Positions 21,001 to 37,767 of a stretch of 64,000 nt of DNA are shown one piece after another (within the stretch, counting starts at the first letter, position 1; each line of letters starts with the position of its first letter). The DNA lies in the NCBI RefSeq assembly GCF_002156705.1, contig NZ_CP019893.1, positions 2,604,001 through 2,668,000 of the forward strand. The letters run 5' to 3'. Origin of the DNA: Natrarchaeobaculum aegyptiacum. Its GTDB lineage: Archaea > Halobacteriota > Halobacteria > Halobacteriales > Natrialbaceae. Both the position numbers and the translations under genes were made by a program. The notes beneath the pieces were generated by a model. The model worked only from the letters and a program-made list of their open reading frames with translations. It had not been told where the DNA came from and did no database searches.

Positions 21001-21076
21001 CGTCCTCGCTGTGGTAGTCGTAGCGCGCTCGCTCGTCGGCAGCCGGGTCGGTCTGGTCAGGTGGACTCGAGGTCAT
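18002..21076 (-). CDS. FAD-linked oxidase fused to Fe-S/CCG subunit (D-2-hydroxyacid dehydrogenase type)
   Basis: 1024 residues. The N-terminal part is a PCMH-type FAD domain (VLPRGGGTSLAGQAVNEAVV near residue 95) with the GlcD/Dld C-cap ending in SGEHGDGRARTQW. The second part is GlpC/GlcF-like: Fe-S motifs CHGCGGCRG and CIGCKGCKHDCP, then CCG domains (HGHCHQKAH and DSTCCGMAGSFGYE). Such fusions oxidise D-lactate, glycolate or D-2-hydroxyglutarate and pass electrons to quinone. It is close in length to other archaeal fusions of this kind. No lactate permease lies next to it, so the substrate is open. Confidence 0.88.
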   Translation of the reverse strand: MTSSPPDQTDPAADERARYDYHSEDVDRPGLVADLERLVEGEVRFDSYSRQLYATDASIYEVTPIGVVFPTSTEDVAAVVSYCADRDIPVLPRGGGTSLAGQAVNEAVVLDFTRHMDDVVSVDPADARVTAEAGIYLETLNEAVAPHGLKFAPDPSWGDKSALGGAIGNNSTGAHSLQYGKTDAYVEAVTVVLADGTVTTFGEVAVDELPELSTGDDLESQIYAEVTRIVEEQGDRIEEVYPDLKRNVSGYNLDWLVEGVRGAKRGVGEPDAEAGTVNVAKLLCGSEGTLAVVTEATVVLEPIPAEKSMALLAYETVLEAMADVPRIVEHGPAAVEAIDDVLLDLARQTPEFGPVTELLPGGTTAALLVEFYADDPEDGQRQVANLLADRCPAVEPSVDSDPPEERTVTGADPVAFDALEAHDERRREQFWKLRKSGLPILLSRTTDEKHVAFVEDVAIPPENLRAYVADVQEILEAHDTYASFYAHAGPGVLHVRPLVNTKTGDGLETMESIADAVTDLALEYDGSVSGEHGDGRARTQWSRKRYGEELWETFRDLKSAFDPDWLLNPGQVVYREDDPTDMTEDHRFGPDYDFDAGFDPVLRWETEQGFQGMTELCHGCGGCRGEQSTTGGVMCPTFRAEDEEILSTRGRANMLRQAMSGDLPDDPTDDEFVREVLDLCIGCKGCKHDCPSGVDLAKLKAEVSYAHHRRHGTSLRDRLFADFEHLARLGSATAPVSNWLSSLPGSGLIGEKTLGIASERDLPTFHRRTFAKRVAEREPAVPAAEAPRQAIFVPDIYTNHEYPGAGEAALEVLEAAGVHVEVAAPRDLGRPAFSKGLLEDAAERARDAIETFVPRVDDGWDLLVLEPSDAVMVQADYLDLYAGEAVETVAANTYGVCEYLDRFDLDEGIDFDASDEHLTYHGHCHQKAHARDHHAVGVLRRAGYAVDPLDSTCCGMAGSFGYEAEHYSMSRAIGEVLYEQVADSPGDRVVAPGSSCRTQLGDRPGASGEPPTPVEVLAEALPPR

Positions 21077-21808
21077 TGCTCGGCGACCGTGGTGGTCGAT
21101 ACTCGCCTACCACGTGGTGACGGGTCAATGTGTGGGCCGACTCTCGCTCGCTGCGGTCCGCGTGGAGATGCGCTGTCGCAGTCATAAATATCGATAGAAT
21201 GTATATCTTCTAAAAATGGTACTACGGGACAAGCACGTACGTTGGAATATATATTGAGTCGATCGATGTTTCCACCCGACGACTTCCTGTTCCGGATTGC
21301 CGTGTCGATTTTTCGAGCAGTGCTGTGGATCTCTAAACGCACGATATTGGCAGAACGTGGCCCCGGTGTCTCGTCCACCGAGGAATATATTGTAATGTTG
21401 ATTGGTCCATTCTGCGATGAACCCCGGACGGTCGGTCACGTCGTTCACTCCCGGACCCACTCTCGAGCCTCGCCGATAGGGGGTGAGAGGAGCGTCCTCG
21501 ACGGGACCCTGCCCCGGCGTCTCACGTTGAACTGGGCTGGGGGCACTGGTGATCTGGTACGATCGATTACCATTCTGGACTAACCATCTATCTGTGTCTG
21601 TTCTTCTATACTTTCGCCCAAATATAGTGCTTATTCTATATCTGTGGACGTCGTCTCGCGCCGGCGGCCGACTGGCTTCGTGAGCTCACTCGAGCGGCCG
21701 TTTCGAGAACCGGATTCGATCGTCTACGGTGCTCCTTCCGGGAGGGCCGCACGAATCGGTTTCGGATCGGAGACTATACGGCCCGGGTGCGTGTACTGTT
21801 CTCTCACG
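21077..21808. other. 732-bp intergenic region
   Basis: No supported gene. The middle (about 21185-21440) and 21595-21640 are AT-rich with several TATA-like stretches (atatatattgag, attctatatctg), unlike the GC-rich surroundings. It could hold the promoters of the FAD oxidase (leftward) and the thiolase (rightward), or a remnant insertion. Short frames here use rare codons and look accidental. Confidence 0.4.
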
Positions 21809-22951
21809 ATGAGCGATAGCCAACCCGTTATCGTCGACGCAGCCAGAACACCGCAGGGAAAACACGGCGGCGTCTACGCCGACCTCGGGAGTGAGGAACT
21901 CTCGGTGCCACTCGTCGACACGATGCTCGAGCGGACGGGTCTCTCGAGCGACGCGGTCGACGACGTTCGCTGGGGCTGTGCCAAGCAGGTGAACGAACAG
22001 AGCAACAACATCGCGCGCGTCATCGCCCTCCTGTCGGAGCTCGGCGAGGACGTGCCCGGGACCACGATCGATCGCCTCTGTGCGTCCTCGGCGGAGGCCA
22101 TCGCGAGCGCGAGCGACGCAATCCGGGCTGGCCAGCGCGAGGTGATCGTCGCCGGTGGCGTCGAGAACATGACCCGGAACGAACGGCGGAAGGGGATCGA
22201 CGCGTACGACGGGATCGCCGAGCAGTACGACGCTGCAGGGCTTCAGATGGGGCAGACGGCCGAGACGGTCGCCCGCGAGTACGACATCAGCCGCGAGGCA
22301 CAGGACGCCTACGGCGCGCGCAGCCAGCAGCGCGCAGTCGAGGCGACCGACGACGGTCGGTTCGACGCCGAGATCGTCCCCATCGACACCGGTGACGAGG
22401 TCGTCGAGGAAGACGAGGGACTGCGTCCCGCCACGACGAAAGAGAAGATCGCAGACCTCCCACCGGCGTTCGTCGAAGACGGCACCGTCACCGCCGCGAA
22501 CGCCTCCCAGATCTCAGACGGTGCCGCGGGCGTCATCGTCACCTCACGCGAGTTCGCCGAAGCACACGGCCTCGAGATTCGCGCGGAGATTCTCGATCAC
22601 GCGGTCACCGGCGTCGATCCGCGCGTGATGGGAATCGGTCCCGTTCCCGCCGTTCGCAGCCTCTGGGAGCGAACCGGCCGCTCGGCCGCAGAGTACGACC
22701 TCGTCGAACTCAACGAGGCCTTCGCCAGCCAGACGCTCTACTGCCAGCGCGAACTCGGCTTCGACGACGACGTCTTCAACGTCAACGGCGGCGCGATCGC
22801 GATCGGCCACCCGCTCGGTGCCTCCGGCGCTCGCCTCCCCGTGACACTCATCCACGAACTCGAGCGCCGTGGCGGCGGCCTCGGGCTCGCGACGATGTGC
22901 GTGGGTTACGGGCAGGGGATGGCCACGGAGTTCCGCGTCCCCGAGCAGTAG
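21809..22951 (+). CDS. acetyl-CoA C-acyltransferase (thiolase)
   Basis: 380 residues from ATG 21809 ([17 protein letters not shown]); an upstream frame would add 55 unlike residues. Catalytic residues are recognisable: the nucleophilic Cys in [13 protein letters not shown], His in [12 protein letters not shown], and the second Cys in [10 protein letters not shown]. It is the degradative/biosynthetic thiolase class of about 390 residues. With the acyl-CoA dehydrogenase and ligase that follow, it fits fatty or branched acid beta-oxidation. Confidence 0.92.
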
Positions 22952-23121: not shown

Positions 23122-24261
23122 TTACAGTACGCGGTCGGCGATGATGCCCTTCTGGATCTCGCTCGTGCCCTCGTAGATCTTCGTGATGCGGGCGTCGCGG
23201 TAGTAGCGTTCGGCGGGGTAGTCCGTGACGTAGCCCGAGCCACCGTGGACCTGGATGCCCTCGTCGGCGACCTCGACGGAGATCTCGCTCGCGAACAGCT
23301 TCGCCATGCTCGAGTACTTGGCGGCGACGTCCTGATTCTCCTGTTCGACCTGACTCGCAGCGCGGTAAGTCAGCGAGCGGGCGGCTTCGACCTTCGTCGC
23401 CATCTCGGCGATCTTGTGCTCGATGGCCTGGAACTCGCCGATCTTCTGGCCGAACTGTTCGCGCTCGTTGGCGTAGTCGACGGCTGCGTCGAGTGCACCC
23501 TGGGCGGCACCGACGGCCTGGGCGGCGACGTTGGTACGCCCGGAGGCGAAGAACTCCATCAGCTGGTAGAAGCCCTTGTCGACTTCACCGATGACGTACT
23601 CCTCGGGAATGCGCACGTCGTCTAAGATGACTTCCGCAAGGTCCGAGGCGCGGATACCGAGTTTGTTGTCGATCTTCTCTCTCGAGATTCCGTCCCAGTC
23701 CATCTCGACCAGGAAGGCGGTGATGCCGCGGTGGCGCTCGCCGGGGCTGGTCTTTGCCATCAGGACGCCGACGTCGGCGACGGTCCCGTTGGTGATCCAC
23801 ATCTTGTTCCCGTTGACGACGAACTCGTCGCCGTCCTTCTCGGCTACCGTCTCCATCCCGGCGACGTTCGAGCCGTGGGCTGGCTCGGAGATCATCGAGA
23901 CGGACGCGACCTCACCGTCGGCGATCTTGGGCAGCCACTCTTCTTTCATCCACTCGTCGCCGAACTCGATGATCATGTTCGAGCCGAAGCCGGCACTGCC
24001 GATCGCAGAGCCGATCCCCGGGTCTGCACGCCAGAGTTCCTCGGTGACGATGGTGCTCGAGACCTTGTCCATCCCGGCACCGCCGTACTCGAGCGGGATG
24101 CTCGGTGCGACGAAGTCGTACTCTGCGGCCTTCTTGCGCAGGTCTTCGGGGTAGATCTGTTCCTGATCGTACTCCTCGGCGACGGGTTTGATCTCGTTCT
24201 CACCGAACTCGCGAACGGCGTCGCGAATCGCCTTCTGCTCGTCGGACAGACTGAATGCCAT
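23122..24261 (-). CDS. acyl-CoA dehydrogenase
   Basis: 379 residues, the standard length of the flavin-dependent family. Family motifs: SMISEPAHGSNVAGM with KMWITNGTVAD in the middle domain and YEGTSEIQKGIIADRVL at the C-terminus, where the Glu of EGTSE is the usual catalytic base of short/medium-chain enzymes. It catalyses the first oxidation of beta-oxidation. It stands alone on the minus strand, 170 bp from the convergent thiolase. Confidence 0.93.
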   Translation of the reverse strand: MAFSLSDEQKAIRDAVREFGENEIKPVAEEYDQEQIYPEDLRKKAAEYDFVAPSIPLEYGGAGMDKVSSTIVTEELWRADPGIGSAIGSAGFGSNMIIEFGDEWMKEEWLPKIADGEVASVSMISEPAHGSNVAGMETVAEKDGDEFVVNGNKMWITNGTVADVGVLMAKTSPGERHRGITAFLVEMDWDGISREKIDNKLGIRASDLAEVILDDVRIPEEYVIGEVDKGFYQLMEFFASGRTNVAAQAVGAAQGALDAAVDYANEREQFGQKIGEFQAIEHKIAEMATKVEAARSLTYRAASQVEQENQDVAAKYSSMAKLFASEISVEVADEGIQVHGGSGYVTDYPAERYYRDARITKIYEGTSEIQKGIIADRVL

Positions 24262-24414: not shown

Positions 24415-25968
24415 CTACTCCTCGTCGCTGATCTTGAACTTCTGAACCTTGCCCGTCGTGGTTCGCGGGAGTTCGTCGACGAATTCGACCTCGCGTGGGT
24501 GCTTGTACGCCGCGAGATGCTCGAGGCAGTACTCTTTGATATCTTCTGGTGTCGCCTCGGCGTCTGGAGTTGGAACGATCAGGGCCTTGACGGTCTCGCC
24601 CCGTCGGTCGTCTGGAACCCCCACTACTGCTGTGTCAGCAACGTCCTCGTGTTCGAACAACAATTCTTCGATTTCGCGCGGGTAGACGTTGTAGCCGCCG
24701 GTAACGATCATGTGTTTCTCCCGGTCGACGACGTAGAAGAAGTCGTCTTCGTCCCAGTACCCGACGTCGCCGGTGTGGAACCACGTTTTGCCGTCGGCCT
24801 CGGTGAATACTTCCTCGTTGGCCTCCGGAAGGCCGTAGTAGCCCTGCATGACGTTTGGTCCGGAAATGACGATCTCGCCGGTGATTTCGTTCAGATCGAC
24901 CTCTCCTTCGTCGACTGGCCCTTCCTCGACGCGTGGGACCTCCTCGAAGTCCTCGTCGACGACCTTCGCGTCCATGCCGTCGAATGGCTGACCGATACTC
25001 CCCTTTCGGCGAGCGTCCGGTGCGTTCGCGTGAGTCGTCGGGCTGGTCTCGGTGAGCCCGTACCCCTCGTAGAGGGTGACACCGAACCGCTCCTCGAACT
25101 GTGCGAGAACCTCGAGCGGGAGGCTCGAGCCGCCGGAGTTGACAAAACGGAGCGAGGAGAGGTCGTACTCTCCGGCATCGGGCTGGTTGATCATGTCGTT
25201 GAACATCGCCGGGACGCCGAACATGATGGTGATGCGCTCGTCTTCGATCAGGTTCATGACGTTCTCGGCGTCCCACTCCGGGACGGGGTAGTAGCTCGCG
25301 CCGTTGAATAGTCCGCCGTTCATCACGACGGACATTCCGTAGATGTGGAACAGCGGCAGGGTCCCGATCATTTTGTCCTCGGGCTCGATGCCACCAATGA
25401 GGTCTGCGTTCGCCTTGGCCGTCCACGCGAGGTTGTCGTGGGAGAGCAAGACGCCCTTCGGCGTTCCAGTCGTCCCGCTCGTGTAGGGCTGGACGGCGAT
25501 ATCGTCGTCCTCCCGGTCGACGACGTCGAGGGATTCGTCGGCCAGGAAGTCTTCGAACGCGGTGGCCCCGTCAGCGTCGCCACCGACGGAAACGATCTGT
25601 TCGACGTCCGTCTCCTCGAGAACCTCGCGCACTTCAGGGACGTTGTCGGCGAGTGAGACGACCGCCTTTGCACCGCTGTCGCCAAGGAGGTGTCCGATCT
25701 CGCGTGCCTTGTACTGGGGATTCATCGGGACGACGATACCGCCAGCACGCAACGTCCCGTGGAACGCGGTCACGAACTGTGGGAGGTTCGGCAGGTATAT
25801 CCCGACCCGGTCGTCTGCGCCGATACCGCAGTCTGTGAGTGCCTGGGCGAATCGACCGGCACGCTCCCAGAATCGTTCGTAGGTCGTCGTCTCGCCGTCG
25901 AAGACGATCGCCGGTGCGTCGGGTGTCGATTCGACCGAATCAGCTACGTTCGTCACGAGATTAGTCAT
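24415..25968 (-). CDS. long-chain/medium-chain acyl-CoA ligase (AMP-forming)
   Basis: 517 residues from ATG 25968 (MTNLVTNVADSVESTPD); a GTG nine codons upstream is possible. ANL-family motifs: the P-loop YTSGTTGTPKGVLLSH, EGYGLTETSPTTH, the hinge HTGDVGYWDEDDFFYVVDRE and the catalytic Lys in PRTTTGKVQKFKI. It activates carboxylic acids to acyl-CoA. Its neighbours are an acyl-CoA dehydrogenase and the TRAP transporters, so an imported acid is a likely substrate. Confidence 0.9.
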   Translation of the reverse strand: MTNLVTNVADSVESTPDAPAIVFDGETTTYERFWERAGRFAQALTDCGIGADDRVGIYLPNLPQFVTAFHGTLRAGGIVVPMNPQYKAREIGHLLGDSGAKAVVSLADNVPEVREVLEETDVEQIVSVGGDADGATAFEDFLADESLDVVDREDDDIAVQPYTSGTTGTPKGVLLSHDNLAWTAKANADLIGGIEPEDKMIGTLPLFHIYGMSVVMNGGLFNGASYYPVPEWDAENVMNLIEDERITIMFGVPAMFNDMINQPDAGEYDLSSLRFVNSGGSSLPLEVLAQFEERFGVTLYEGYGLTETSPTTHANAPDARRKGSIGQPFDGMDAKVVDEDFEEVPRVEEGPVDEGEVDLNEITGEIVISGPNVMQGYYGLPEANEEVFTEADGKTWFHTGDVGYWDEDDFFYVVDREKHMIVTGGYNVYPREIEELLFEHEDVADTAVVGVPDDRRGETVKALIVPTPDAEATPEDIKEYCLEHLAAYKHPREVEFVDELPRTTTGKVQKFKISDEE

Positions 25969-26034
25969 TCGTTCTGTGCGTCGTGTTAACGTCACAAAAA
26001 CGTTGTCTTCCCGGCGGCGTGCACGCGTTTCTGG

Positions 26035-28242
26035 TCACTCGGCTGATGTCTGCTCGACGGGTGTCGAGTCGCGATCGAACTCGTACCCAACCACCATGGT
26101 GGCGTAGACGAGGCCCGCGACGATGATGGCAGCACCGACGACCTGAACGCCGACATGGACGATCGAGCCGAACATAGCGACGAACGCGAGTGTACCGTAG
26201 GCCGCTCGCCACGGCACCGAGAGGGTTCTTGCACCGTCGAATCCCACGGTTGCGACGACGAGGCCTGCTGTTCCTGCAAGTACCACCGGGAACGCTATTA
26301 GTGTTTCGGGGAACGACCAGTAGATGAGGCTGTTATTCGTGACGAACGCGAACGGGATGACGAACCCCGGGGCGCCAATACGCATCGCCTGGACACAGGA
26401 CCTGGTGAAACTCGCACCGGCAATACTCGAGCCGATCGCGACGGAGACGGCGACCGGTGGTGTAATCGCCGACAGCATGGCGAAGTAGAAGACGAACATG
26501 TGGGCCGTGATGTCGGCGACTCCCATCGCCGTCACGCTCGGCACGATCAACATCGCGACGAGGACGTACGCCGCAGGGGTGGGCATCCCGAGTCCAAAGA
26601 GGATGCTCGCGAGCATCGCCATGATCAACAGGAAGATCAGTACACCACCGGCGAGCGAGACCATCTGTTGACTGATTGCGCCGGCAAGGCCGGTCCCCTC
26701 GATCAACTGGAGGACGACCCCGAGCGAAGCGAGGATCCCGACGAGCGGAGCCATCTCGACGGCACCCTGCTTGAACCCCTCGATCGTCTGTAAGACCGTC
26801 CGGAACAGACTCGAGCCGAGTCGTCGAACCGGAAACTCCGTCAGTCCGCGTGCGACCGCGGCGAGTGCCTTTGGGACTGTCGCGAGCAGTGTGACGGCGA
26901 CGGCGGATTTCGAACCGGCGTCGCTCAGGTCCTCTCTGGCTGTCTCGCCGACACCGAAGACTTCGACCAGTGGATTTCGAAGGAACATGACGACTACGAT
27001 CGTGATCGTCGTGTAGAGCCCCGCTGCAAGCGGCGTGTATCGGAGGTAAACGAGCGTGTAGAGCAACACGGCGAGCGGAATCGCGAAGTGAAGTCCGCCG
27101 AGCAACGAGGTGAAATCAAATCGCTCGATCTCGTCGGTGGTCCACCCGAACTTCAAGACGATGAGATACACCGCGAAACCGACGCTCAGGTAGAACAGCG
27201 CGGCTGGAACGATGCCTGCCTGGACGATCGACAGGTACGGCACACCTAGTAGATCGGCCATCAGAAAGGCAGCGACACCCATCACGGGGGGAAGCATCTG
27301 TCCACCGGAGGAAGCTACCGCCTCGATCGAGGCGGCGAAGTCGTCGCGGACGCCCTGTTCTTTGATCATCGGGATCGTAAAGCTTCCCGTCGTCGCCGTG
27401 TTTGCGGCCGCGCTCCCGGTGATCGACCCCATGATCATACTCGAGACGACAGCCATCTGGACGACGCCAGTTCGGAGGCTCTTGCCGACCTCTCGGCCCA
27501 CCTCGAGGACGTAGTCGAGCGCGCCGAACGCTTTGGCAATCCCGGCGAACATGATGAAGATCGCTACCCACGTCGATCCAATCTCGAGAATAAAGCCGTA
27601 GGTTCCCTGCAGGGAGATCGCGCCTTCGCGGGCGATCCGACTCGGGCTCATTCCGCTGTGGTTCAGGATGCCGGGTAACAGCGGCCCGACGTATGCATAG
27701 ACGATCGCGAAGACGACGACCGACGTGAGCAGGTTCCCGAACGCTCGTCGCGTCGCGTCGGTCACCAGGAAGACGATCAAAAGCCCCACGAGAATGTCCA
27801 TCGTCGTATAGCCGACGAGGTACGCTTCCTCGAGTCGCCCGAAGTGGACGTGGACGTATCCGGCGGCGGCGAGCGACAGCGCAGCCGACACGACCGCGAC
27901 TGTCGGGACGGCGAGCGCTGCAATTCGGCGGAGGAGGGGGCTGACGCGCTCGAGGCGGCCGCCCGCGAACGGGTTTCCGGTGAGTCCCTCACGGGCCTGC
28001 AAGATGTAGAACAGCGCGAGCCCCATCCCGAGAAATACGTTGGCGTACTGGGTAGGATCGGAGAACGGCAACGCGTAGGCGTAATAGACCGTCAGACTGG
28101 TCAGTCCGACCCCAAATAGGTATACGAGTACCGTCAGGATTCCCGCGAGGGTCACGTCCCCCGGCGATGGCAGGTCCTCTCGGGTCAGCTCGTGTAGCCC
28201 GGGCCTGTCGCCTCCATCTCGAACGGATACGTCGTCACTCAT
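26035..28242 (-). CDS. TRAP transporter fused permease (TAXI type), copy A
   Basis: 735 residues with about 16-18 hydrophobic segments: an N-terminal small-subunit-like part and a DctM-like large part in one chain. Signature regions are GSITGSAAANTATTGSFTIP and GLGMPTPAAYVLVAML. TRAP carriers import organic acids driven by an ion gradient, using a soluble or lipid-anchored binding protein. The matching TAXI binding protein (28252-29316) is immediately upstream with a 9-bp gap. A second, related system follows the same order at 29442-32541. The first 30 residues are hydrophilic and cytoplasmic. Confidence 0.92.
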   Translation of the reverse strand: MSDDVSVRDGGDRPGLHELTREDLPSPGDVTLAGILTVLVYLFGVGLTSLTVYYAYALPFSDPTQYANVFLGMGLALFYILQAREGLTGNPFAGGRLERVSPLLRRIAALAVPTVAVVSAALSLAAAGYVHVHFGRLEEAYLVGYTTMDILVGLLIVFLVTDATRRAFGNLLTSVVVFAIVYAYVGPLLPGILNHSGMSPSRIAREGAISLQGTYGFILEIGSTWVAIFIMFAGIAKAFGALDYVLEVGREVGKSLRTGVVQMAVVSSMIMGSITGSAAANTATTGSFTIPMIKEQGVRDDFAASIEAVASSGGQMLPPVMGVAAFLMADLLGVPYLSIVQAGIVPAALFYLSVGFAVYLIVLKFGWTTDEIERFDFTSLLGGLHFAIPLAVLLYTLVYLRYTPLAAGLYTTITIVVVMFLRNPLVEVFGVGETAREDLSDAGSKSAVAVTLLATVPKALAAVARGLTEFPVRRLGSSLFRTVLQTIEGFKQGAVEMAPLVGILASLGVVLQLIEGTGLAGAISQQMVSLAGGVLIFLLIMAMLASILFGLGMPTPAAYVLVAMLIVPSVTAMGVADITAHMFVFYFAMLSAITPPVAVSVAIGSSIAGASFTRSCVQAMRIGAPGFVIPFAFVTNNSLIYWSFPETLIAFPVVLAGTAGLVVATVGFDGARTLSVPWRAAYGTLAFVAMFGSIVHVGVQVVGAAIIVAGLVYATMVVGYEFDRDSTPVEQTSAE

Positions 28243-28251
28243 GGTAGCTGA

Positions 28252-29316
28252 TTACTCCCCGACGACGAAGTCGTCGTCCCAGACGCCGATCTCTTGGTAG
28301 AAGTCGGCTGCCGCGGGGTGGAAGGGGAAGTCATCGTACATACGCGACGTGAACCACTCGTCGTCCATGAAGTATCCCAGGTAGGCGTGGTCGTCTTCCA
28401 TCTCTTCGCGGTGTTCGTACAGCGTCTCGAGGAACTCGTAGACGACGTCGTACTCGAGGTCGTCGCGAACGACGAAGTTATACGGAATATTGATCGCGAC
28501 TGCCTCGTCGGGTACGTGGGCGTAGCCGTCGAGGTGGTCTCTGGTCATGTCGACCGTTTCGACTGGAACTCCGGGGTCGTTCTCGAGGTCCTCGACGACC
28601 TCCTCGGGCCACTCCAGAACGTACGTGTCGACCGTCTGTTTCATCTCCTGAATCCATGCTGCCTCGAAGTCGAAGTTCGAGATCGTCACGACGCCGACGT
28701 CCAGTTGCCCCTCTTGCATTGCACCCGCCTGTTCGCCGTAGGAGACGCTGATGGTTTCGTAATCGTCGAGGGCGTAATCGAGTGCGTCCGTCAGCGTATC
28801 TCTCGTCCCCGAGGACCCGGGCGTAGGAGAGATGGTAGCTCCGTCTTCGATCTCGTCGATCGATGTCCAGCCGTGGTTGTTCACGAGCAGCCACGGGAGG
28901 TCGTTGTAGTTGAGGATTTGCTGTGGTTCGTAGCCAAGGTCGTCGTATGGCGCTTCGCCCTCGAGAATGTCGAGCGCCGCGCGGTGTTGAATCATTCCGA
29001 TGTCTGCCTCGCCGCGTCCGAGACGACCGATGTTGTCGGAGGTTCCCTGACTCGGCTGGGCGTCGACGCTGATCATGTCACTGTTGGTGTCGACGGTCGA
29101 CGCAATCCCCTGGCTGGCGGCATAGGTCCCAGTTTCCGACTCCGAGGTGACGATCACGAGATCCGAATCGTCGCCGCTGCCACCAGTATCACCATTATCG
29201 TCTCCGAGTCCGCCATCGAGACAGCCTGCGAGTGCGAGTGTCGAACCGGCTCCTGCAGCGGCGAGGAACGTTCGTCGTGATGTACGAGGTACGCTGTTGA
29301 GTCTCCGATCTTCCAT
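28252..29316 (-). CDS. TAXI-family TRAP substrate-binding lipoprotein, copy A
   Basis: 354 residues. Tat signal RRTFLAAAGAGSTLALAGCL: twin Arg, hydrophobic stretch and lipobox Cys, so it is exported folded and lipid-anchored. A Gly/Asp linker is followed by the TAXI domain, with TGTYAASQGIASTVDTN near the start and ADIGMIQH in the ligand cleft. It delivers substrate to the permease encoded just downstream. Ligand unknown; TAXI proteins bind glutamate-like or other organic acids. Confidence 0.9.
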   Translation of the reverse strand: MEDRRLNSVPRTSRRTFLAAAGAGSTLALAGCLDGGLGDDNGDTGGSGDDSDLVIVTSESETGTYAASQGIASTVDTNSDMISVDAQPSQGTSDNIGRLGRGEADIGMIQHRAALDILEGEAPYDDLGYEPQQILNYNDLPWLLVNNHGWTSIDEIEDGATISPTPGSSGTRDTLTDALDYALDDYETISVSYGEQAGAMQEGQLDVGVVTISNFDFEAAWIQEMKQTVDTYVLEWPEEVVEDLENDPGVPVETVDMTRDHLDGYAHVPDEAVAINIPYNFVVRDDLEYDVVYEFLETLYEHREEMEDDHAYLGYFMDDEWFTSRMYDDFPFHPAAADFYQEIGVWDDDFVVGE

Positions 29317-29441
29317 ACGAACCTCTTATTAATTGACCGGATTTAACGATGTCGGTTACGCTTCGGGTAGCAGTTCCTCGTATACACTCCGGTAACTGGT
29401 CCTGCAAGAAAAGCGCGCGAGGGAATCGACGTCGTCCCGGC

Positions 29442-31499
29442 TCACTCGGGCGTCGACGAGGGTGATGCCACCCTGTTCGAGTCGTAGCCAACGACGAACT
29501 TCGCGTGTGCCAGCGTGGCGACGATGACCGTTGCGGCGACGAGCTGGACGCCGACGTGAAGGATCGACCCGTACATCGCTGCAAACGACAGGACGACGTA
29601 TGCACCGACCCATGGCAGTGAGAGGGTTCGCGCACCGTCGAACCGGACCGTTGCGACGATGATCGCGACGGTTCCTGCGAAGACGACCGGGAACGCGACG
29701 AGCGTCTCCATCGACCAGTAGATCAGACTCTCGTTCGTGATCAGGGCAAAGGGGATCAGGAAGCCCGGCGCACCGATTCGCAACGCATTGACACACGCCG
29801 TCATGAAGTCGGTGTTCGCAATCCGCGACCCCACGGCGACCGAGATTGCCACTGGAGGCGTGATCGCCGAGAGCATGGCGAAGTAGAAGACGAACATGTG
29901 TGTCGTGATCTCCGGAACGCCCATCTCCATGACTCCCGGAGCAACCAGCACGACGACGAGAACGTACGCTGCTGGCGTCGGCATCCCGAGCCCGAACAGG
30001 ATACTCGCGACCATCGCCAGAAGCAAGACGACGACCAGCAGCCCTCCGCCGAGCCCGACGATCATCGTGCTCGTCCGCTGGGCGAGCCCAGTCTGTGTCA
30101 ACATCTGGATGATGATCCCCATCGCTGCCAGCACGCCAACCAGGGGAGCCATCTCGAGGCCGCCACGGCGCAACCCGAGAACGACGGTCTCGAGTTCTTC
30201 GAGCGGTGCGCGAGGGGAAAGCTCGCTCTGATAGGCCTTTCTCGCGAGAGATACCACGATTCCGATGGCGAACATCACCGCGATCGTGTAGAGACCAGCT
30301 GTCAACGGTGTAAACTGCCGCCAGATGAGGAAATACAGCAAGACGGCTAGTGGAACGGCAAAGTGGATACCCTTGGTGAGGACTCGATAGTCGAACGACC
30401 CTGTATTCGGCGTCGTCCAGCCGAACTTGAGTACCAGGAAGTGGACCGCGATGCCGACGCTCAGGTAGAACAGCGCGGCCGGGATGATCCCTGCCTGAAT
30501 GATGGTGACGTACGGAACGTCGACGAAGTCAGCCATCAGGAACGCAGCGACGCCCATTACCGGCGGGAGCATCTGGCCGCCTGCAGACGCGACGGCTTCG
30601 ATCGAGGCTGCATACTCAGACCGGATGCCCTGATCTTTCATCATCGGGATCGTGAAGCTTCCCGTCGTCGCCGTGTTTGCGGCCGCGCTCCCGGTGATCG
30701 ACCCCATGATCATACTCGCGATGACGGCGATCTGGACGACACCTGTCCGAAGACTTTTCCCAAGCTCACGACCGACTTCGAGGACGAAATCCATCAACCC
30801 GTAGGCTTTGGCGATCCCGGCGAACATGATGAAGATCGCCACCCAGGTCGAACCGATCCCCATCAGCGTGTCGTGGTACACTCCGGTAAGTCCGACGGCA
30901 CCCTCGGTTGCGACGTCGGTCCAGTCGAGGCCAGTGTGACGGAGCAGCCCTGGTAGATTCGGGCCAATCAGGGCGTGAGCATACCCAATCGATGCTACCG
31001 TGACCATCGCAATTACCCAGCCGAACGCTCGCCGCGTCGCCTCGAGTGCCAGCCCAATCAGGATGAGTCCGACGGCGAAGTCTGCGAGTTCGAACCCGAG
31101 AAGGTGGACCTCTTCGTGGAGGCGCTGGAAGTTTATCCAGACGTAGGCGCTGGCCGCCAGCGAGAGGGCTCCGAGGACCATCGCCACGTATGGATCTACT
31201 CGCGCCCACAGCTGTTGAACCTCGTCGACGAGCCCGCTCTTTCCACCGTCCCCCATCGCCTCGACGTCCTCGGTTGGCGTGTCGTCTGACGACGGCCTGA
31301 AGTGTTTTCGCGCCTCGTCGAAGAAAAACGTCGCGAGCCCGAGTCCGAGAAAGATCACCGAGTACTCGAGTCTGATCGTCCACAGCGTGATCGCGTAGTG
31401 AAGCGTATACGCCGTGAACAGCACCGCGAGAACAGACGTCACTCCGTTCAATGCGACGTAGGACCGCGGTTGTGATTTCACCCGTGAAAGAACGTTCAT
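29442..31499 (-). CDS. TRAP transporter fused permease (TAXI type), copy B
   Basis: 685 residues, same architecture as copy A. It shares long blocks such as MGSITGSAAANTATTGSFTI and LGMPTPAAYVLVVVLVA. The N-terminus is a shorter basic lead (MNVLSRVKSQPRSYVALNG). A 64-bp stretch (30655-30718) is identical at DNA level to 27380-27443 in copy A. It lies 13 bp after its own binding-protein gene, so the four genes are two tandem two-gene units. Confidence 0.92.
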   Translation of the reverse strand: MNVLSRVKSQPRSYVALNGVTSVLAVLFTAYTLHYAITLWTIRLEYSVIFLGLGLATFFFDEARKHFRPSSDDTPTEDVEAMGDGGKSGLVDEVQQLWARVDPYVAMVLGALSLAASAYVWINFQRLHEEVHLLGFELADFAVGLILIGLALEATRRAFGWVIAMVTVASIGYAHALIGPNLPGLLRHTGLDWTDVATEGAVGLTGVYHDTLMGIGSTWVAIFIMFAGIAKAYGLMDFVLEVGRELGKSLRTGVVQIAVIASMIMGSITGSAAANTATTGSFTIPMMKDQGIRSEYAASIEAVASAGGQMLPPVMGVAAFLMADFVDVPYVTIIQAGIIPAALFYLSVGIAVHFLVLKFGWTTPNTGSFDYRVLTKGIHFAVPLAVLLYFLIWRQFTPLTAGLYTIAVMFAIGIVVSLARKAYQSELSPRAPLEELETVVLGLRRGGLEMAPLVGVLAAMGIIIQMLTQTGLAQRTSTMIVGLGGGLLVVVLLLAMVASILFGLGMPTPAAYVLVVVLVAPGVMEMGVPEITTHMFVFYFAMLSAITPPVAISVAVGSRIANTDFMTACVNALRIGAPGFLIPFALITNESLIYWSMETLVAFPVVFAGTVAIIVATVRFDGARTLSLPWVGAYVVLSFAAMYGSILHVGVQLVAATVIVATLAHAKFVVGYDSNRVASPSSTPE

Positions 31500-31512
31500 T
31501 GTCAGTGCCTGT

Positions 31513-32541
31513 CTATGGCTCGTCGGCGCGTTCGAACCCGTCAGCGAGCCCGTGCTCGTCCCAGAAGTCGTACGCTGCCGCGTGCATCGGCACGTCGTCG
31601 AACAGCAGCTCGGTCATGTTCTCTTCGGCTTCGAGCAACTCGAGGACGGCATGATAGTTCCCGAGCTCTTCGCGGTTCTCGTAGAGCACGTCGAGGAAGC
31701 CGTAGACGGTATCGTAATCGAGGTCGGTGCGACTGATGAAGTTGTACTCCATCACCGGTGTCGCGATTTCGTCCGGACCGTCCGCGATACTTTCGAGTTC
31801 GTCGGTGGGGAACGATTCAACGGCCATCCCGGGATCGGCCTCCCATTCCTCTCTGACGTCGTCCGGTACCGAGAGGATCTTGGTGTCGACCGTGCCGCCG
31901 ATCTCCTGAAGCCAGCCGGGTTCGATCGAGAAATTCAGATACGTACCGGAGCCGACGTCGAGTCGGCCCTCTTCCATCGCTGGTCCCTGCTCGCTGTATC
32001 CGTAGCTGACGCGTTCGTAGTCGTCGGCAGCGAACGATAGAGCGTGTTCCAGTGCGGGAGCGGTACCCGACCCTTCTGGTGTGGGGTTGACCTGGGTCTC
32101 TGGACCGATATCCGAGAGTGTCTCGAGTTCGTCGTCGGCGGTCAGGAAGAACCACGGCAGTGAGTAAAAGTGGAGAATCTGTGCAGGCTCGAAATTGACC
32201 TCGTGGAACGGTTCGACTCCCTCGAGGATCTGGTTCATCGTCCAGTTCTGGACGTAGACCATCTCTACGTCCTCGCGCATGAGTGCACCGATGTTTGCTT
32301 CAGAGCCCGCACTGGGCCGAGCTTCGACAAAAAGGTCGTCGGTGTGCTCGTTGACGACCGCGGCGAGTCCCCCGTTTGCCGCGTACGCGGTTGTTCCCTC
32401 CGTTGCCGTTTGCATCCGGATCGTCTGTTCATCTGTCCCCTCGGTATCGCTTCCACCGAGGCATCCTGCGACCGAGAGCGTCGTCCCTGCTGCTGCGCTC
32501 GCTAGAACCTTTCGTCGGCTCACGTACCTATCTCTGGCCAT
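31513..32541 (-). CDS. TAXI-family TRAP substrate-binding lipoprotein, copy B
   Basis: 342 residues from ATG 32541 (a GTG directly precedes it). Tat/lipobox signal: SRRKVLASAAAGTTLSVAGCL. The TAXI domain follows (TTAYAANGGLAAVVNEHTDD). It clearly parallels copy A (VNPTPEGSGTAPALEHALSF against ISPTPGSSGTRDTLTDALDY) but is diverged, which suggests different ligand preference. First gene of the four-gene transporter block. Confidence 0.9.
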   Translation of the reverse strand: MARDRYVSRRKVLASAAAGTTLSVAGCLGGSDTEGTDEQTIRMQTATEGTTAYAANGGLAAVVNEHTDDLFVEARPSAGSEANIGALMREDVEMVYVQNWTMNQILEGVEPFHEVNFEPAQILHFYSLPWFFLTADDELETLSDIGPETQVNPTPEGSGTAPALEHALSFAADDYERVSYGYSEQGPAMEEGRLDVGSGTYLNFSIEPGWLQEIGGTVDTKILSVPDDVREEWEADPGMAVESFPTDELESIADGPDEIATPVMEYNFISRTDLDYDTVYGFLDVLYENREELGNYHAVLELLEAEENMTELLFDDVPMHAAAYDFWDEHGLADGFERADEP

Positions 32542-32770
32542 CACAATGGAATCGAATTAATCGAGGTGGTTAAAGATGTCGATGCCCGCTTTCACGATCG
32601 CGTCAGACGCGGTCCCTTATGGCGATTATTACCTCGGCGCACAGTCCGTGATGACGCCGCTGAGGGCTAACTTGCCGGTCGCCTGTCACTCGAGTTTCTT
32701 ATACGCGTGTATCGCCGTCCGAAGCGATGGATTCCACAATAGCTAATGCACAGCCGGTAGAGGTACCAGT

Positions 32771-33934
32771 ATGCTCGACTACGTTCAGCTCGAGGAGGAC
32801 CTCGACCAGGAAGAGAGACTGATCCGGGACACGGCTCGAGACTTCGTCGAAGAACACATCAAGCCAGATATCGGCGAGCACTTCGAAAACGGCACGTTCC
32901 CGACCGAACTCATCTCCGAGATGGGTGAACTTGGCTTCTACGCGCCCAACCTCGAGGGCTATGGCTCCCCGAACGTCTCCGAGACTGCCTACGGCCTGCT
33001 GATGCAGGAACTCGAGGCGGGCGATTCGGGGCTGCGTTCGATGGCCTCGGTGCAGGGTGCGCTCGTGATGTACCCCATCCACGCCTACGGGAGCGAGGAG
33101 CAGAAAGAGGAGTGGCTCCCCGAACTCGGTAAAGGCGAGGCCGTCGGCTGTTTCGGCCTCACCGAACCCGAACACGGCTCGAACCCGTCGGCGATGGAGA
33201 CCTACGCCGAACGGGACGGTGATGGCTACGTCCTGAACGGCTCGAAAACCTGGATCACGAACTCGCCGATCGCCGACGTCGCCGTCGTCTGGGCGCGCGA
33301 CCGCTCGGCCGACGAGAATCCCGTTCGCGGATTCCTCGTCGAGACCGACCGCGACGGCGTCAGCACGAACAAGATCACGGAGAAGCTCTCGCTGCGCGCT
33401 TCCATCACCGGCGAGATCGGCCTCAACGACGTTTACGTGCCCGAGGAGAACGTCCTGCCGGGCGTCTCCGGGATGAAAGGTCCACTCTCGTGTCTCACGC
33501 AGGCCCGCTACGGCATCGCGTGGGGAGCCGTCGGCGCCGCACGGGACTGCTTCGAGGAGGCCCGCCAGTACGCACTCGACCGCGAGCAGTTCGGTGGCCC
33601 GATCGGGCGCTTCCAGCTCCAGCAGCAGAAACTCGCCGAGATGGCCACCCAGATTACCCTGGGTCAGCTGCTCGTCTACCGCGTCGCCGAGATCAAAGAA
33701 CGCGGCGACCTCGAGCCGGCACACATCTCGCTGGCCAAGCGAAACAACGTGCGCATGGCGCGCAACCAGGCCCGAATCGCCCGTGAGATGCTCGGGGGCA
33801 ACGGGATCACGACCGATTACTCGCCGATGCGTCACATGGCGAACCTCGAGACCGTCTACACCTACGAGGGCACCCACGATATCCACACGCTCGTCCTCGG
33901 CCAGGACCTGACTGGCATCCCCGCGTACGAGTAA
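32771..33934 (+). CDS. acyl-CoA dehydrogenase, glutaryl-CoA dehydrogenase-like
   Basis: 387 residues. Motifs: FGLTEPEHGSNPSAMETYA, KTWITNSPIADVAVVWA, and the C-terminal TYEGTHDIHTLVLGQDLTG. The EGTHDIH form (instead of EGTSEIQ) and the ending with GIPAYE are typical of the glutaryl-CoA dehydrogenase group, which both oxidises and decarboxylates glutaryl-CoA, an end product of benzoyl-CoA and lysine breakdown. It could also act on other acyl-CoAs. It is divergent from the TRAP block and followed by an IclR regulator on the same strand. Confidence 0.88.
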   Translation: MLDYVQLEEDLDQEERLIRDTARDFVEEHIKPDIGEHFENGTFPTELISEMGELGFYAPNLEGYGSPNVSETAYGLLMQELEAGDSGLRSMASVQGALVMYPIHAYGSEEQKEEWLPELGKGEAVGCFGLTEPEHGSNPSAMETYAERDGDGYVLNGSKTWITNSPIADVAVVWARDRSADENPVRGFLVETDRDGVSTNKITEKLSLRASITGEIGLNDVYVPEENVLPGVSGMKGPLSCLTQARYGIAWGAVGAARDCFEEARQYALDREQFGGPIGRFQLQQQKLAEMATQITLGQLLVYRVAEIKERGDLEPAHISLAKRNNVRMARNQARIAREMLGGNGITTDYSPMRHMANLETVYTYEGTHDIHTLVLGQDLTGIPAYE

Positions 33935-34034: not shown

Positions 34035-34065
34035 CATTGAACTGGCCGCCGACCGAGTGTCACGT

Positions 34066-34830
34066 ATGGCCAGCAAGGACGGTCAGGGGGACGCCGATGG
34101 GGTCTCGACGACCCGAAAGACCTTCGAGATCCTCGAGACCATCCGGGACGAGGAGGGGCTCTCGATCACGGAGTTGACCCGTCGGACTGGACTGCCCAAG
34201 AGTACCGTCTTCCGGCACGTCAAGACGCTCGAGGACCTCGGCTACCTCGTCGAACGCGACAGCGGTTACTACGTGGGACTGCGTTTTCTCCAGATCAGCG
34301 AGACGGCCCGGACCCGGCGCGTCGGCTACACTGCCGCCAAGCGTAAGGTGTTCGAACTCGGCCGCGAGACCGAGGAACGTGCCGTCTTCATCGTCGAAGA
34401 GGAGTACGACGCCGTCTACGTCCACCGGTACGGAAGCCTGGCGGACACGATGATCGGTGCGCGCCGGCCACTTCACACCATGGCCTCCGGGAAGGTCATC
34501 CTCGCCGAGTGGGACGACGACGACGTCCGGACGTTCCTCGAGGAGTCGGACCTCGAACCCGTTACCCGCAATACGATCACGGACCCCGACGACCTGTTCG
34601 AGGAACTCGAGTGCGTTCGCGAGCGGGGGTACGCGGTCAACGATCAGGAACACATGGATGGACTTCGCGGCGTCGCCGTCCCCGTGTACACGCCCGGAGA
34701 CGACCTTCTCGGGGCGCTCGGGGTCTTCGGGCCGACCAGCCGGCTCAAAGGAGAGTACCTCCACGACGAACTCACGACGCTCTTACAGGAGAAAGCCGGT
34801 GAGATTCGGGTGACGCTCGCCTACGGCTGA
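34066..34830 (+). CDS. IclR-family transcriptional regulator
   Basis: 254 residues from ATG 34066. N-terminal winged helix (TTRKTFEILETIRDEEGLSI, then TELTRRTGLPKSTVFRHVKT) and the C-terminal IclR effector domain (RRPLHTMASGKVILAEWDDD, ERGYAVNDQEHMDGLRGVAV). IclR regulators usually sense small carboxylic acids and control neighbouring catabolic genes. Two similar palindromes sit just upstream, so autoregulation and control of the preceding acyl-CoA dehydrogenase are plausible. Confidence 0.92.
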   Translation: MASKDGQGDADGVSTTRKTFEILETIRDEEGLSITELTRRTGLPKSTVFRHVKTLEDLGYLVERDSGYYVGLRFLQISETARTRRVGYTAAKRKVFELGRETEERAVFIVEEEYDAVYVHRYGSLADTMIGARRPLHTMASGKVILAEWDDDDVRTFLEESDLEPVTRNTITDPDDLFEELECVRERGYAVNDQEHMDGLRGVAVPVYTPGDDLLGALGVFGPTSRLKGEYLHDELTTLLQEKAGEIRVTLAYG

Positions 34831-35787: not shown

Positions 35788-37767
35788 TTAGATCTCGGTG
35801 ATCCGGTCGTGTTCGTCGCCGATCGCGGCGGCGTCCTCGGGGAGCAACGCGACGACGAGGTAGTCGGTGTACTCCTCGAAGTAGTCGACGAGTTTGGCGA
35901 TGCGACTGGAGTCGAGTGCCTCGAGTGAGTCGAGCAGCATGAACGGAACGACCTCGTAGACCTCGTGGACGAGGTAGCCAGCGAGCGCGAAGATCAGGCC
36001 CGTCACTTCGCGTTCGCTCTCCGAGAGGTGGTCGATCGTGTCCTCGAAGGTGCGGCCGCCCTCGGTCGAGCGCACGATGTGGAGGTCGAAGGCGGTGCGT
36101 TCGACGGTACGTCGTCCCTCGCGAACGGTCCGGGCGACGCGTTCGATCCAGATCCGCTCGATGTTCTCGTACTCGAGCACCTCGAGGACGGCGTCCATGT
36201 GCTCGTTGAACGCCTCGACGGCCTCGCGTTCGATCCGGTCGATCCGGGTCCGAAGCTCTTCGAGTTCGTCTCGAACCTCCTCGAGTCGGGCCTCGAGGTC
36301 GTCCTCTTCGTCGAGTGCGGACTCGATCTCGTCGATCTCGTCGGTCGTCGTCTCGAGGTCGCGCTCTAAGCGACCTAGCGAGAACTCGAGTTCGTTCGCC
36401 TGGCGGTTGAGTTCGAGCAGGCTCTCCTCCTCGTCGTCTTCGCTCTCGTCGGCGTCCTGTGCGGCCTCGAGTGCTTCGGCCTCGGCCTCGAGCTCCTCGA
36501 TTTCGGCCTCGAGTTCGTCACGGCGCTCCTCGAGGTCTTCGAGGCGTTCTTCGCGGCGGTCGATCTCGGCGTCGACGTCCTCGAGACGGCTCTCGATTCG
36601 CTCACGCTGGGAGCGCGTCTGGTCGATCTCGCGGCGTTCAGATCGCAGCGATTTGATCTGGCTCTCGAGGTCGTCGCGTTCTGCGAGTTTCGACTCCTGG
36701 AGCGAGCGCAGCCGGTCGATCGTGTCTTCGATTTCGCCGCGCTCGACGGCGCTGCCACAGGTCCAGCACTGGACCGTTTCTTCGTCCGCCAGCAGTTGAT
36801 CGGTGACGTCGCTGTCGTCGCCGTCGCTGTCGGCGAGCAGTTCCCGTATTTCGGGATGGGCCCCCTCGAGCATCTCCTCGTTGAACTGGACGATGCTCTG
36901 GAGCTGGCTGACGACGCTGTCGATCGACTGGGACCGGCGCTGGAGGCGGTCGATCTCGTCGTCGACCTCGGCGCGGTTGAGCGAGCCCGGATCGGGAAGC
37001 TCTTCGAGCTCCTCCTCGAGTTCCTCGCGTTCGGACCGAAGGGCAGCGAGACTCTCGCGTTCGGTCTCGCGGTCGAACCGGACGTCGTCGAACGCCGCCC
37101 GCCGCTCCCGGAGGGTCGTGAGCTTCTCTTCGAGTTCGCCATCGTCGTCGTCGGTCGTGTCGTCGGCGGACTCGGCGGCCTCGATCGCGTCGGTGATCTC
37201 TGCGAGTTCGGCGCGTTTGTCCTCGATCTTGCCCTCGAGGTCGGTGCGCTCCTGTTCGAGTTTCGGAAGTCGTCCCTTGAGCGACTCGAGGCGGTCGAGT
37301 TCGTCCGTCAGTTGGTCTTTTTCGGACTGGAGCCGCCGGATGTTGGCCTCGATCTCGTCGGTGTCGACCGGCCGGAGGATGATCTCCCGGAGGTCGTCCT
37401 CGGTGGTGACCGCCCGGCGGGCCGGGTTCGATTCGAGCAAGAACGCGAAGAGTTCGGCCAGTTCCGGCTCGTCGAGGAACGGTTCCCCGCCCATGACGAC
37501 GGTATCGCCCCGCCGTTCGAGCGTTCGTCTGTACGTCTGATCGCCAATCTCGAGTTCGGCGGTTCCCTCTTCGGCATCGGCTTTCAGGGAGGCAGATTCG
37601 CCGCCGAGAGCCGCCATGAACGCCTGCAACAGTGACGTCCGATTGGTCGCGTTTCGCCCCGCCAGCACGGTGACGCCCGACTCGAGGCCGACGGTCGTTT
37701 CGTCGATACCCCCGACGTTGCGGGCGTGCAATCGTGCCTGCTGGGCGATCGGTTGCTGCGTAGCCAT
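35788..37767 (-). CDS. archaea-specific SMC-related protein (Rad50/SMC-like coiled coil)
   Basis: 659 residues. N-terminal ATPase half with a degenerate Walker A (AGRNATNRTSLL, residues 36-47; the usual Lys is Arg43). Long heptad-rich coiled coils run from about 140-325 and 345-545, separated by a CxxC zinc-hook-like motif (CWTCGS, Cys334 and Cys337). The C-terminal half carries an ABC-signature-like LSESEREV and a Walker B-like MLLDSLEALD, where the catalytic Glu is Ser. This is the short haloarchaeal SMC relative found with rdfA. The altered ATPase residues suggest weak or absent hydrolysis. A role in chromosome or envelope organisation is inference. Confidence 0.8.
   Translation of the reverse strand: MATQQPIAQQARLHARNVGGIDETTVGLESGVTVLAGRNATNRTSLLQAFMAALGGESASLKADAEEGTAELEIGDQTYRRTLERRGDTVVMGGEPFLDEPELAELFAFLLESNPARRAVTTEDDLREIILRPVDTDEIEANIRRLQSEKDQLTDELDRLESLKGRLPKLEQERTDLEGKIEDKRAELAEITDAIEAAESADDTTDDDDGELEEKLTTLRERRAAFDDVRFDRETERESLAALRSEREELEEELEELPDPGSLNRAEVDDEIDRLQRRSQSIDSVVSQLQSIVQFNEEMLEGAHPEIRELLADSDGDDSDVTDQLLADEETVQCWTCGSAVERGEIEDTIDRLRSLQESKLAERDDLESQIKSLRSERREIDQTRSQRERIESRLEDVDAEIDRREERLEDLEERRDELEAEIEELEAEAEALEAAQDADESEDDEEESLLELNRQANELEFSLGRLERDLETTTDEIDEIESALDEEDDLEARLEEVRDELEELRTRIDRIEREAVEAFNEHMDAVLEVLEYENIERIWIERVARTVREGRRTVERTAFDLHIVRSTEGGRTFEDTIDHLSESEREVTGLIFALAGYLVHEVYEVVPFMLLDSLEALDSSRIAKLVDYFEEYTDYLVVALLPEDAAAIGDEHDRITEI

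Follow-up and report, generated by a model that had tools for sequence, protein, structure and literature searches.

The 64,000-nucleotide stretch of DNA from Natrarchaeobaculum aegyptiacum analysed here (hereafter the window) encompasses two adjacent TAXI-type TRAP transporter units on the minus strand, each consisting of a solute-binding protein and a fused permease. Unit B, which lies upstream of unit A, encodes binding protein B (343 amino acids; 31513..32544; the listed start codon is GTG, and an ATG is present at 32541) and permease B (685 amino acids; 29442..31499), and unit A encodes binding protein A (354 amino acids; 28252..29316) and permease A (735 amino acids; 26035..28242). The binding proteins match TIGR02122 and PF16868, and their scores against the NCBIfam TRAP_TAXI model (91.6 bits for A and 89.0 for B; cut-off 84.35) place both in the TAXI family. 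The permeases match TIGR02123 and PF06808, with TRAP_fused scores of 413.9 (A) and 414.1 bits (B) against a cut-off of 320.65, so that each is a single fused membrane protein. An RR and an LAGC signal can be read in the sequence of binding protein A, and an RR and a VAGC signal in that of binding protein B. Comparison with PDB sequences yielded six and four matches for the two binding proteins, respectively, under the names TAXI (9oz4, 9ibo, 8s4j), "immunogenic protein" (9ibp, 8u79) and "putative GluR0 ligand binding core" (1us4); we take the latter two names also to denote TAXI proteins. TAXI is given as the sole TRAP type found in archaea and its membrane part as one fused chain in every case (PMC11574862).

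The units are embedded in a cluster with the gene order thiolase (21644..22951, plus strand; TIGR01930, PF00108), acyl-CoA dehydrogenase (the second of the cluster, identified by a profile match and present in the clusters of relatives; 23122..24261, minus strand), AMP-binding acyl-CoA ligase (24415..25995, minus strand; PF00501), transporter unit, acyl-CoA dehydrogenase (32771..33934, plus strand; PF00441 and others) and IclR-type regulator (34057..34830, plus strand; PF01614, PF09339). The ligase and the latter dehydrogenase, which is 85-93% identical across the slot loci that carry it, form the two borders of what we denote the slot; the ligase lies beside the slot in relatives as well. Judging from the gene content, the cluster is probably responsible for the breakdown of a carboxylic acid via its CoA ester. 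Both units are predicted importers of an organic acid used by the neighbouring enzymes, which the ligase would activate and the dehydrogenases and thiolase would degrade. For the neighbouring enzymes and the regulator, no specific NCBIfam model was shown at or above its cut-off, with the exception of the general thiolase model, and therefore we name no substrate. Two further genes in the vicinity encode a 1024-amino-acid protein with FAD-linked oxidase, 4Fe-4S and CCG domains (18002-21076), relatives of which (67-79% identity) are present near several slot loci, and an archaea-specific SMC-related protein (35788-37767; NF045487, 676 bits) that is found near the cluster in several relatives as well.

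Contents of the slot and descent of the units

In a maximum-likelihood tree of 52 permeases, permease A groups with the permeases of loci L187, L043 and L152-154 (support 100/100), and permease B groups with L155 (100/100) inside a clade of ten rows (100/99); the two clades are parted by nodes with support of 99/96. Of the 80 loci found, 12 were used. In other genomes, relatives of A and relatives of B each occupy this slot as its only unit. We also observed an additional binding protein gene at locus L155 (11833-12927), 62% identical to that of binding protein B and with no adjacent permease match in the fetched stretch. Locus L186 (2799-9951) encodes a back-to-back pair of divergent TAXI-TRAP units, of which one is a distant member of clade A, and the fetched stretch shows no sign of the cluster border genes beyond a ligase of 34% identity.

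Occupancy of the slot was surveyed in 125 genomes of the family, with N. aegyptiacum represented by a single genome here as in all other comparisons. A ligase orthologue with at least 73% identity is encoded in 47 genomes, and in 41 of these the ligase is located near the dehydrogenase on one contig. The gap between the two genes is 157-303 bp, that is, empty, in 4 genomes and 3.46-4.20 kb, corresponding to one unit, in 36; a gap of 6.775 kb that accommodates two units is found in the N. aegyptiacum genome only. Each of the 29 single-unit gaps that were opened contains a unit, with a permease match in G233 that spans only about half of the protein; for the remaining seven genomes, a permease match falls within the gap. 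As for the six genomes in which the two genes were not paired, the listed dehydrogenase match is on a different contig than the ligase in four (G122, G373, G384 and G003), and no dehydrogenase match was detected at the cut-off used in the remaining two (G092 and G413). Direct comparison of 41 stretches (40 of the 50 fetched, plus the window) showed both border genes in 37, with a unit between them in 33 and none in 4.

Comparison of the slot contents with the history of the surrounding genes points to repeated change. We built a tree of the four flanking enzymes by a quick method (39 rows, 10 open forks; G037 and G015 were lost for lack of flank columns) and mapped the contents on it as type A, type B or type C (neither A nor B). 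At least 11 changes are required over the 38 labelled rows, a count that is low because C lumps everything that is neither A nor B. Type A alone accounts for 5 changes in 5 rows, and the starred branches by themselves force 5 changes each for A and B. The rows closest by path to the flanks of N. aegyptiacum, namely G003, which belongs to the same genus, and G024, both carry C-type units; the starred set that includes the N. aegyptiacum flanks consists of N. aegyptiacum itself, G003 and the distant G090.

Six pairs of loci were then inspected for the borders of the exchanged DNA. In G271/G183, the flank proteins are 94-98% identical, compared with 42% for the binding proteins and 60% for the permeases; the respective values for G277/G038 are 93-99%, 43% and 58%. 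In both pairs, DNA identity of 91-95% stops 40-55 bp outside the border genes. When the A-type slot of G406 is aligned with the empty slot of G407, DNA identity of 87-91% likewise stops, at 43 and 32 bp. Thus, three of the six pairs have sharp borders; of the other three, G415/G346 gives an alignment that continues across the permease, and two pairs (G028/G265 and G315/G007) show greater divergence. Conserved flanks with contents of different descent at one and the same place are what is expected of cassette replacement in situ, and these comparisons suggest cassette-wise exchange of the units, with a doubly filled slot in the window. Replacement by recombination in the flanks is the likely route, with which the positions of the borders are consistent, albeit without proving it. 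At the 125-bp junction between the two units (29317..29441, minus strand), which was read by eye, no scar or mobile element was recognised.

The intergenic borders contain two additional features. A short, near-palindromic motif like GGTATTGYGRTACC is located about 25-45 bases upstream of the border acyl-CoA dehydrogenase (window 32700-32770) and, as judged by eye, recurs whether the slot is of type A, B or C or is empty; it may be a promoter or an operator for IclR. The window copy of this motif is degenerate, with 3 mismatches, and the 3 matches there, against 7.45 expected, are not significant. On the opposite side of the slot, a stretch like GTAACAATCCTTTTGT precedes the ligase (about 25995-26034 in the window) in many of the listed loci, again by eye and whatever the slot content.

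The same distribution could in principle have been produced by a very old tandem, with A, B and perhaps other types together in the ancestral slot, of which all the remaining lineages later lost one or another. Such a history would account for the relatives of both units at the same place, but it fits poorly with the presence of two units in just 1 of 41 slots, and the differing units within flanking DNA of 91-95% identity would call for double slots that persisted until recently in several lineages. Given also the number of changes on the flank tree (at least 11), we regard the old tandem as improbable.

The sequence-only reading had proposed tandem duplication with local gene conversion or strong constraint. 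We considered this as duplication of a single TAXI-TRAP unit in this lineage followed by divergence, with the block described below kept alike by either process. The units do share order and orientation, and the two-unit slot is confined to the N. aegyptiacum genome. However, neither unit is the closest relative of the other: their permeases belong to two old, well-supported clades with relatives in other genera, and the binding proteins concur, with that of A being 75% identical to its L187 counterpart, that of B 57% identical to the protein encoded beside permease L155, and the two only 42% identical to each other over 339 residues. Because A and B belong to two old clades, each with lone occupants of the slot elsewhere, tandem duplication finds no support and appears very unlikely.

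A probable conversion tract within the permease genes

Superimposed on this deep divergence is a short block of perfect DNA identity, at 27380..27443 in permease A (residues SMIMGSITGSAAANTATTGS) and 30655..30718 in permease B (both minus strand), in which all 64 of 64 bases are the same. The permeases are otherwise 58% identical at the protein level over 667 aligned residues and use the same codon at 48% of their 370 shared residues (M and W excluded); after the block, the longest exact matches between the two genes are of 29, 26 and 26 bases. The original observation of identical blocks in diverged permeases is hence accurate, and within the N. aegyptiacum genome these two copies are the only matches to the block at E <= 0.001.

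The earlier reading had offered strong constraint at the transport core as one possible cause, and for the amino acids this is correct: all 21 residues of the block are present in 32 of the 52 distinct permeases and 20 of 21 in 14 more, and in a PDB search the block aligned with a TRAP permease of solved structure (7qha_B, chain sequence positions 99-118). Protein constraint nevertheless fails to explain the identity of the DNA because orthologues retain the residues and yet vary the codons. Synonymous identity is 0.585 in the block and 0.62 in the rest of the gene among clade A orthologues, 0.508 and 0.596 among clade B orthologues, and 0.518 and 0.535 in A x B comparisons; even the L187 permease, 76% identical to permease A, has just 11 of the 20 block codons in common with it. 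A search of 392 genomes from the order, in which no more than two candidates were scored for each, listed a G321 sequence of 95% identity as the best other DNA match to the block. The G321 permease (L167), although from another clade, has 17 of the 20 block codons in common with A and B, so that high similarity without a shared genome does occur; in general, the control searches scored the best two or three candidates per genome.

How surprising the run is depends on the null model. The block constitutes a run of 20 identical codons, a length that was reached in none of 20000 shuffles of the codon matches (mean longest run 6.4, maximum 17). We judged shuffling too lenient because codon variability differs between sites, and replaced it with a site-specific null calibrated on other permease pairs, which also superseded a simulation with independent sites (1/200000 and 0/200000). 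Exact runs of such length do turn up elsewhere in this family, whose codon usage is biased: among 1104 permease pairs with less than 80% identity (4 long-branch rows of the 52 dropped), 5 have runs of at least 20 codons, namely A-B and 4 pairs between different genomes, and it is for this reason that the null was calibrated. In the 738 pairs with less than 60% identity, the A-B run is the longest at 64 bases, followed by one of 56. The calibration set comprised 245 pairs, seven A-clade rows against 35 others (10 rows dropped), for each of which the probability of the longest run was computed from site-specific match rates scaled to that pair. The resulting p-values are near uniform, with 49% below 0.5, and show some excess at the low end (7.3% below 0.05 and 2.4% below 0.01); the A-B run has p = 6.8e-7, and the next-lowest pair 0.0022.

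An independent line of evidence comes from approximately unbiased (AU) tests of alternative trees, for which 5 rows were dropped. Over the 20 codons of the block (47 rows), the best tree places A beside B within clade B, and the permease tree trails it by 18.2 log units and is rejected (AU 1.9e-6); because the block was picked for its identity, this value can be multiplied by the 26 segments described below, giving p of about 5e-5. In the 60 codons upstream of the block, both conversion trees are rejected (AU <= 3.5e-4) and the permease tree is upheld, whereas the trees cannot be told apart from the 60 codons downstream, which leaves one end of the tract open. We further tested 26 segments of 20 codons that cover codons 142-661 of the 685 in permease B. 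The permease tree is the best in 20 segments and is rejected at the 0.05 level in 2, one being the block and the other lying at about codons 321-340. We considered whether the latter marks another conversion tract but, with an AU value of 0.021 in 1 of 26 segments, treat it as chance.

Collectively, these results support local gene conversion between permeases A and B over at least 64 bp, as had been suggested on the basis of the block: both copies reside in one genome, the identity is limited to a short tract, the phylogeny of that tract conflicts with the rest of the gene, and the run falls far outside the calibrated null. The donor was probably permease B and the recipient permease A, although the difference is not significant: the opposite placement (A into B) is 5.2 log units behind the best tree, with AU values of 0.13 and 0.87, respectively. 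Six codons of the block were found in none of the six A-clade orthologues and in 4, 1, 1, 0, 3 and 2, respectively, of the nine B-clade rows.

If there had been no conversion, selection on the protein combined with a common codon bias would have to have made the block identical by chance. The conservation of its residues in most of the 52 permeases, one pair from other genomes that agrees at 18 of 20 block codons, and the 4 other pairs out of 1104 with runs of at least 20 codons all speak for such a coincidence, but A-B is the sole pair with 20 of 20 (mean 10.7, standard deviation 2.4, next 18), and both the calibrated probability and the tree conflict weigh heavily against it, so that chance is a very poor explanation. 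Least credible of all is a DNA or RNA element inside the genes (a regulatory site, a structure or an antisense gene) that holds the 64 bases fixed, for although the block of permease A is overlapped by a 100-codon ORF on the plus strand (27212-27514), synonymous identity is not raised in the block among orthologues of either clade, and an RNA structure was rejected as the block folds no better than shuffled sequences (z 0.91).

A probable doubly filled exchange slot and its known counterparts

The census with one unit per slot as the rule, the differing units within near-identical flanks and the conflict with the flank tree together indicate that the window contains an exchange slot filled twice, in which a short conversion tract arose afterwards, a reading to which we assign a probability of roughly 0.8. 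Under this scenario, the cluster slot would normally hold one two-gene TAXI-TRAP unit, and units of different clades would replace each other, most likely through recombination of incoming with resident DNA at the conserved flanking genes, with joins that in the clearest pairs fall in the intergenic stretches beside the border genes. In N. aegyptiacum, a second unit would have been added without replacement of the first, bringing an A-type and a B-type unit into tandem, after which a short conversion would have transferred 64 bp or more within a strongly conserved region of the permease, most likely from B into A. The conversion was probably neutral, since it could have left the amino acids encoded by the block unaltered.

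A more far-reaching possibility, which we put forward tentatively and expect less than the reading above, is that this is a true exchange site, where selection and conserved flanks drive repeated swaps of the whole unit in haloarchaea while the enzymes are kept. The selection might favour new substrates, or evasion of viruses or toxins that use transport proteins at the cell surface for recognition; double slots would then be transient intermediates that allow hybrid permeases to arise by conversion.

What looked like a tandem duplication is better read as the outcome of transporters being exchanged repeatedly at a single slot of the chromosome. The empty, single and double states within one archaeal family form a natural series for asking how a metabolic cluster alters its uptake and yet keeps its enzymes. 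Conversion between paralogues and replacement in situ are each known in kind; we found no published account of the slot in the literature searched and, as far as that literature shows, a slot that occurs empty, singly filled and doubly filled represents a new instance.

The units themselves resemble Vibrio cholerae VcGluP and the 2-oxoglutarate TAXI system of Proteus mirabilis in combining a TAXI binding protein with a single fused permease (PMC11574862); unlike these systems, units A and B are set in a haloarchaeal cluster of CoA-ester enzymes. The block resembles concerted evolution between paralogues, in which a local stretch of one gene overwrites the other, and the tracts involved have been called rather short (PMC11276520). 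The intermolecular conversion of Haloferax volcanii operates between genome copies, with tracts that can span several thousand bases (PMC11276520), unlike that between permeases A and B, which are old, diverged forms united in one slot.

The locus also provides an archaeal example of a short and well-marked tract of conversion between paralogues of long standing. For the slot as such, the closest counterpart is xenologous gene displacement in situ, or the mosaic operon, where a distant homologue replaces a gene of a conserved cluster and the neighbours stay. The slot is similar in that a distant homologue appears to be swapped in with the neighbours kept. It differs from the displacement of one gene in that a whole unit of binding protein and permease would be exchanged, repeatedly within one family, and in that the slot is found in empty and doubly filled states as well.
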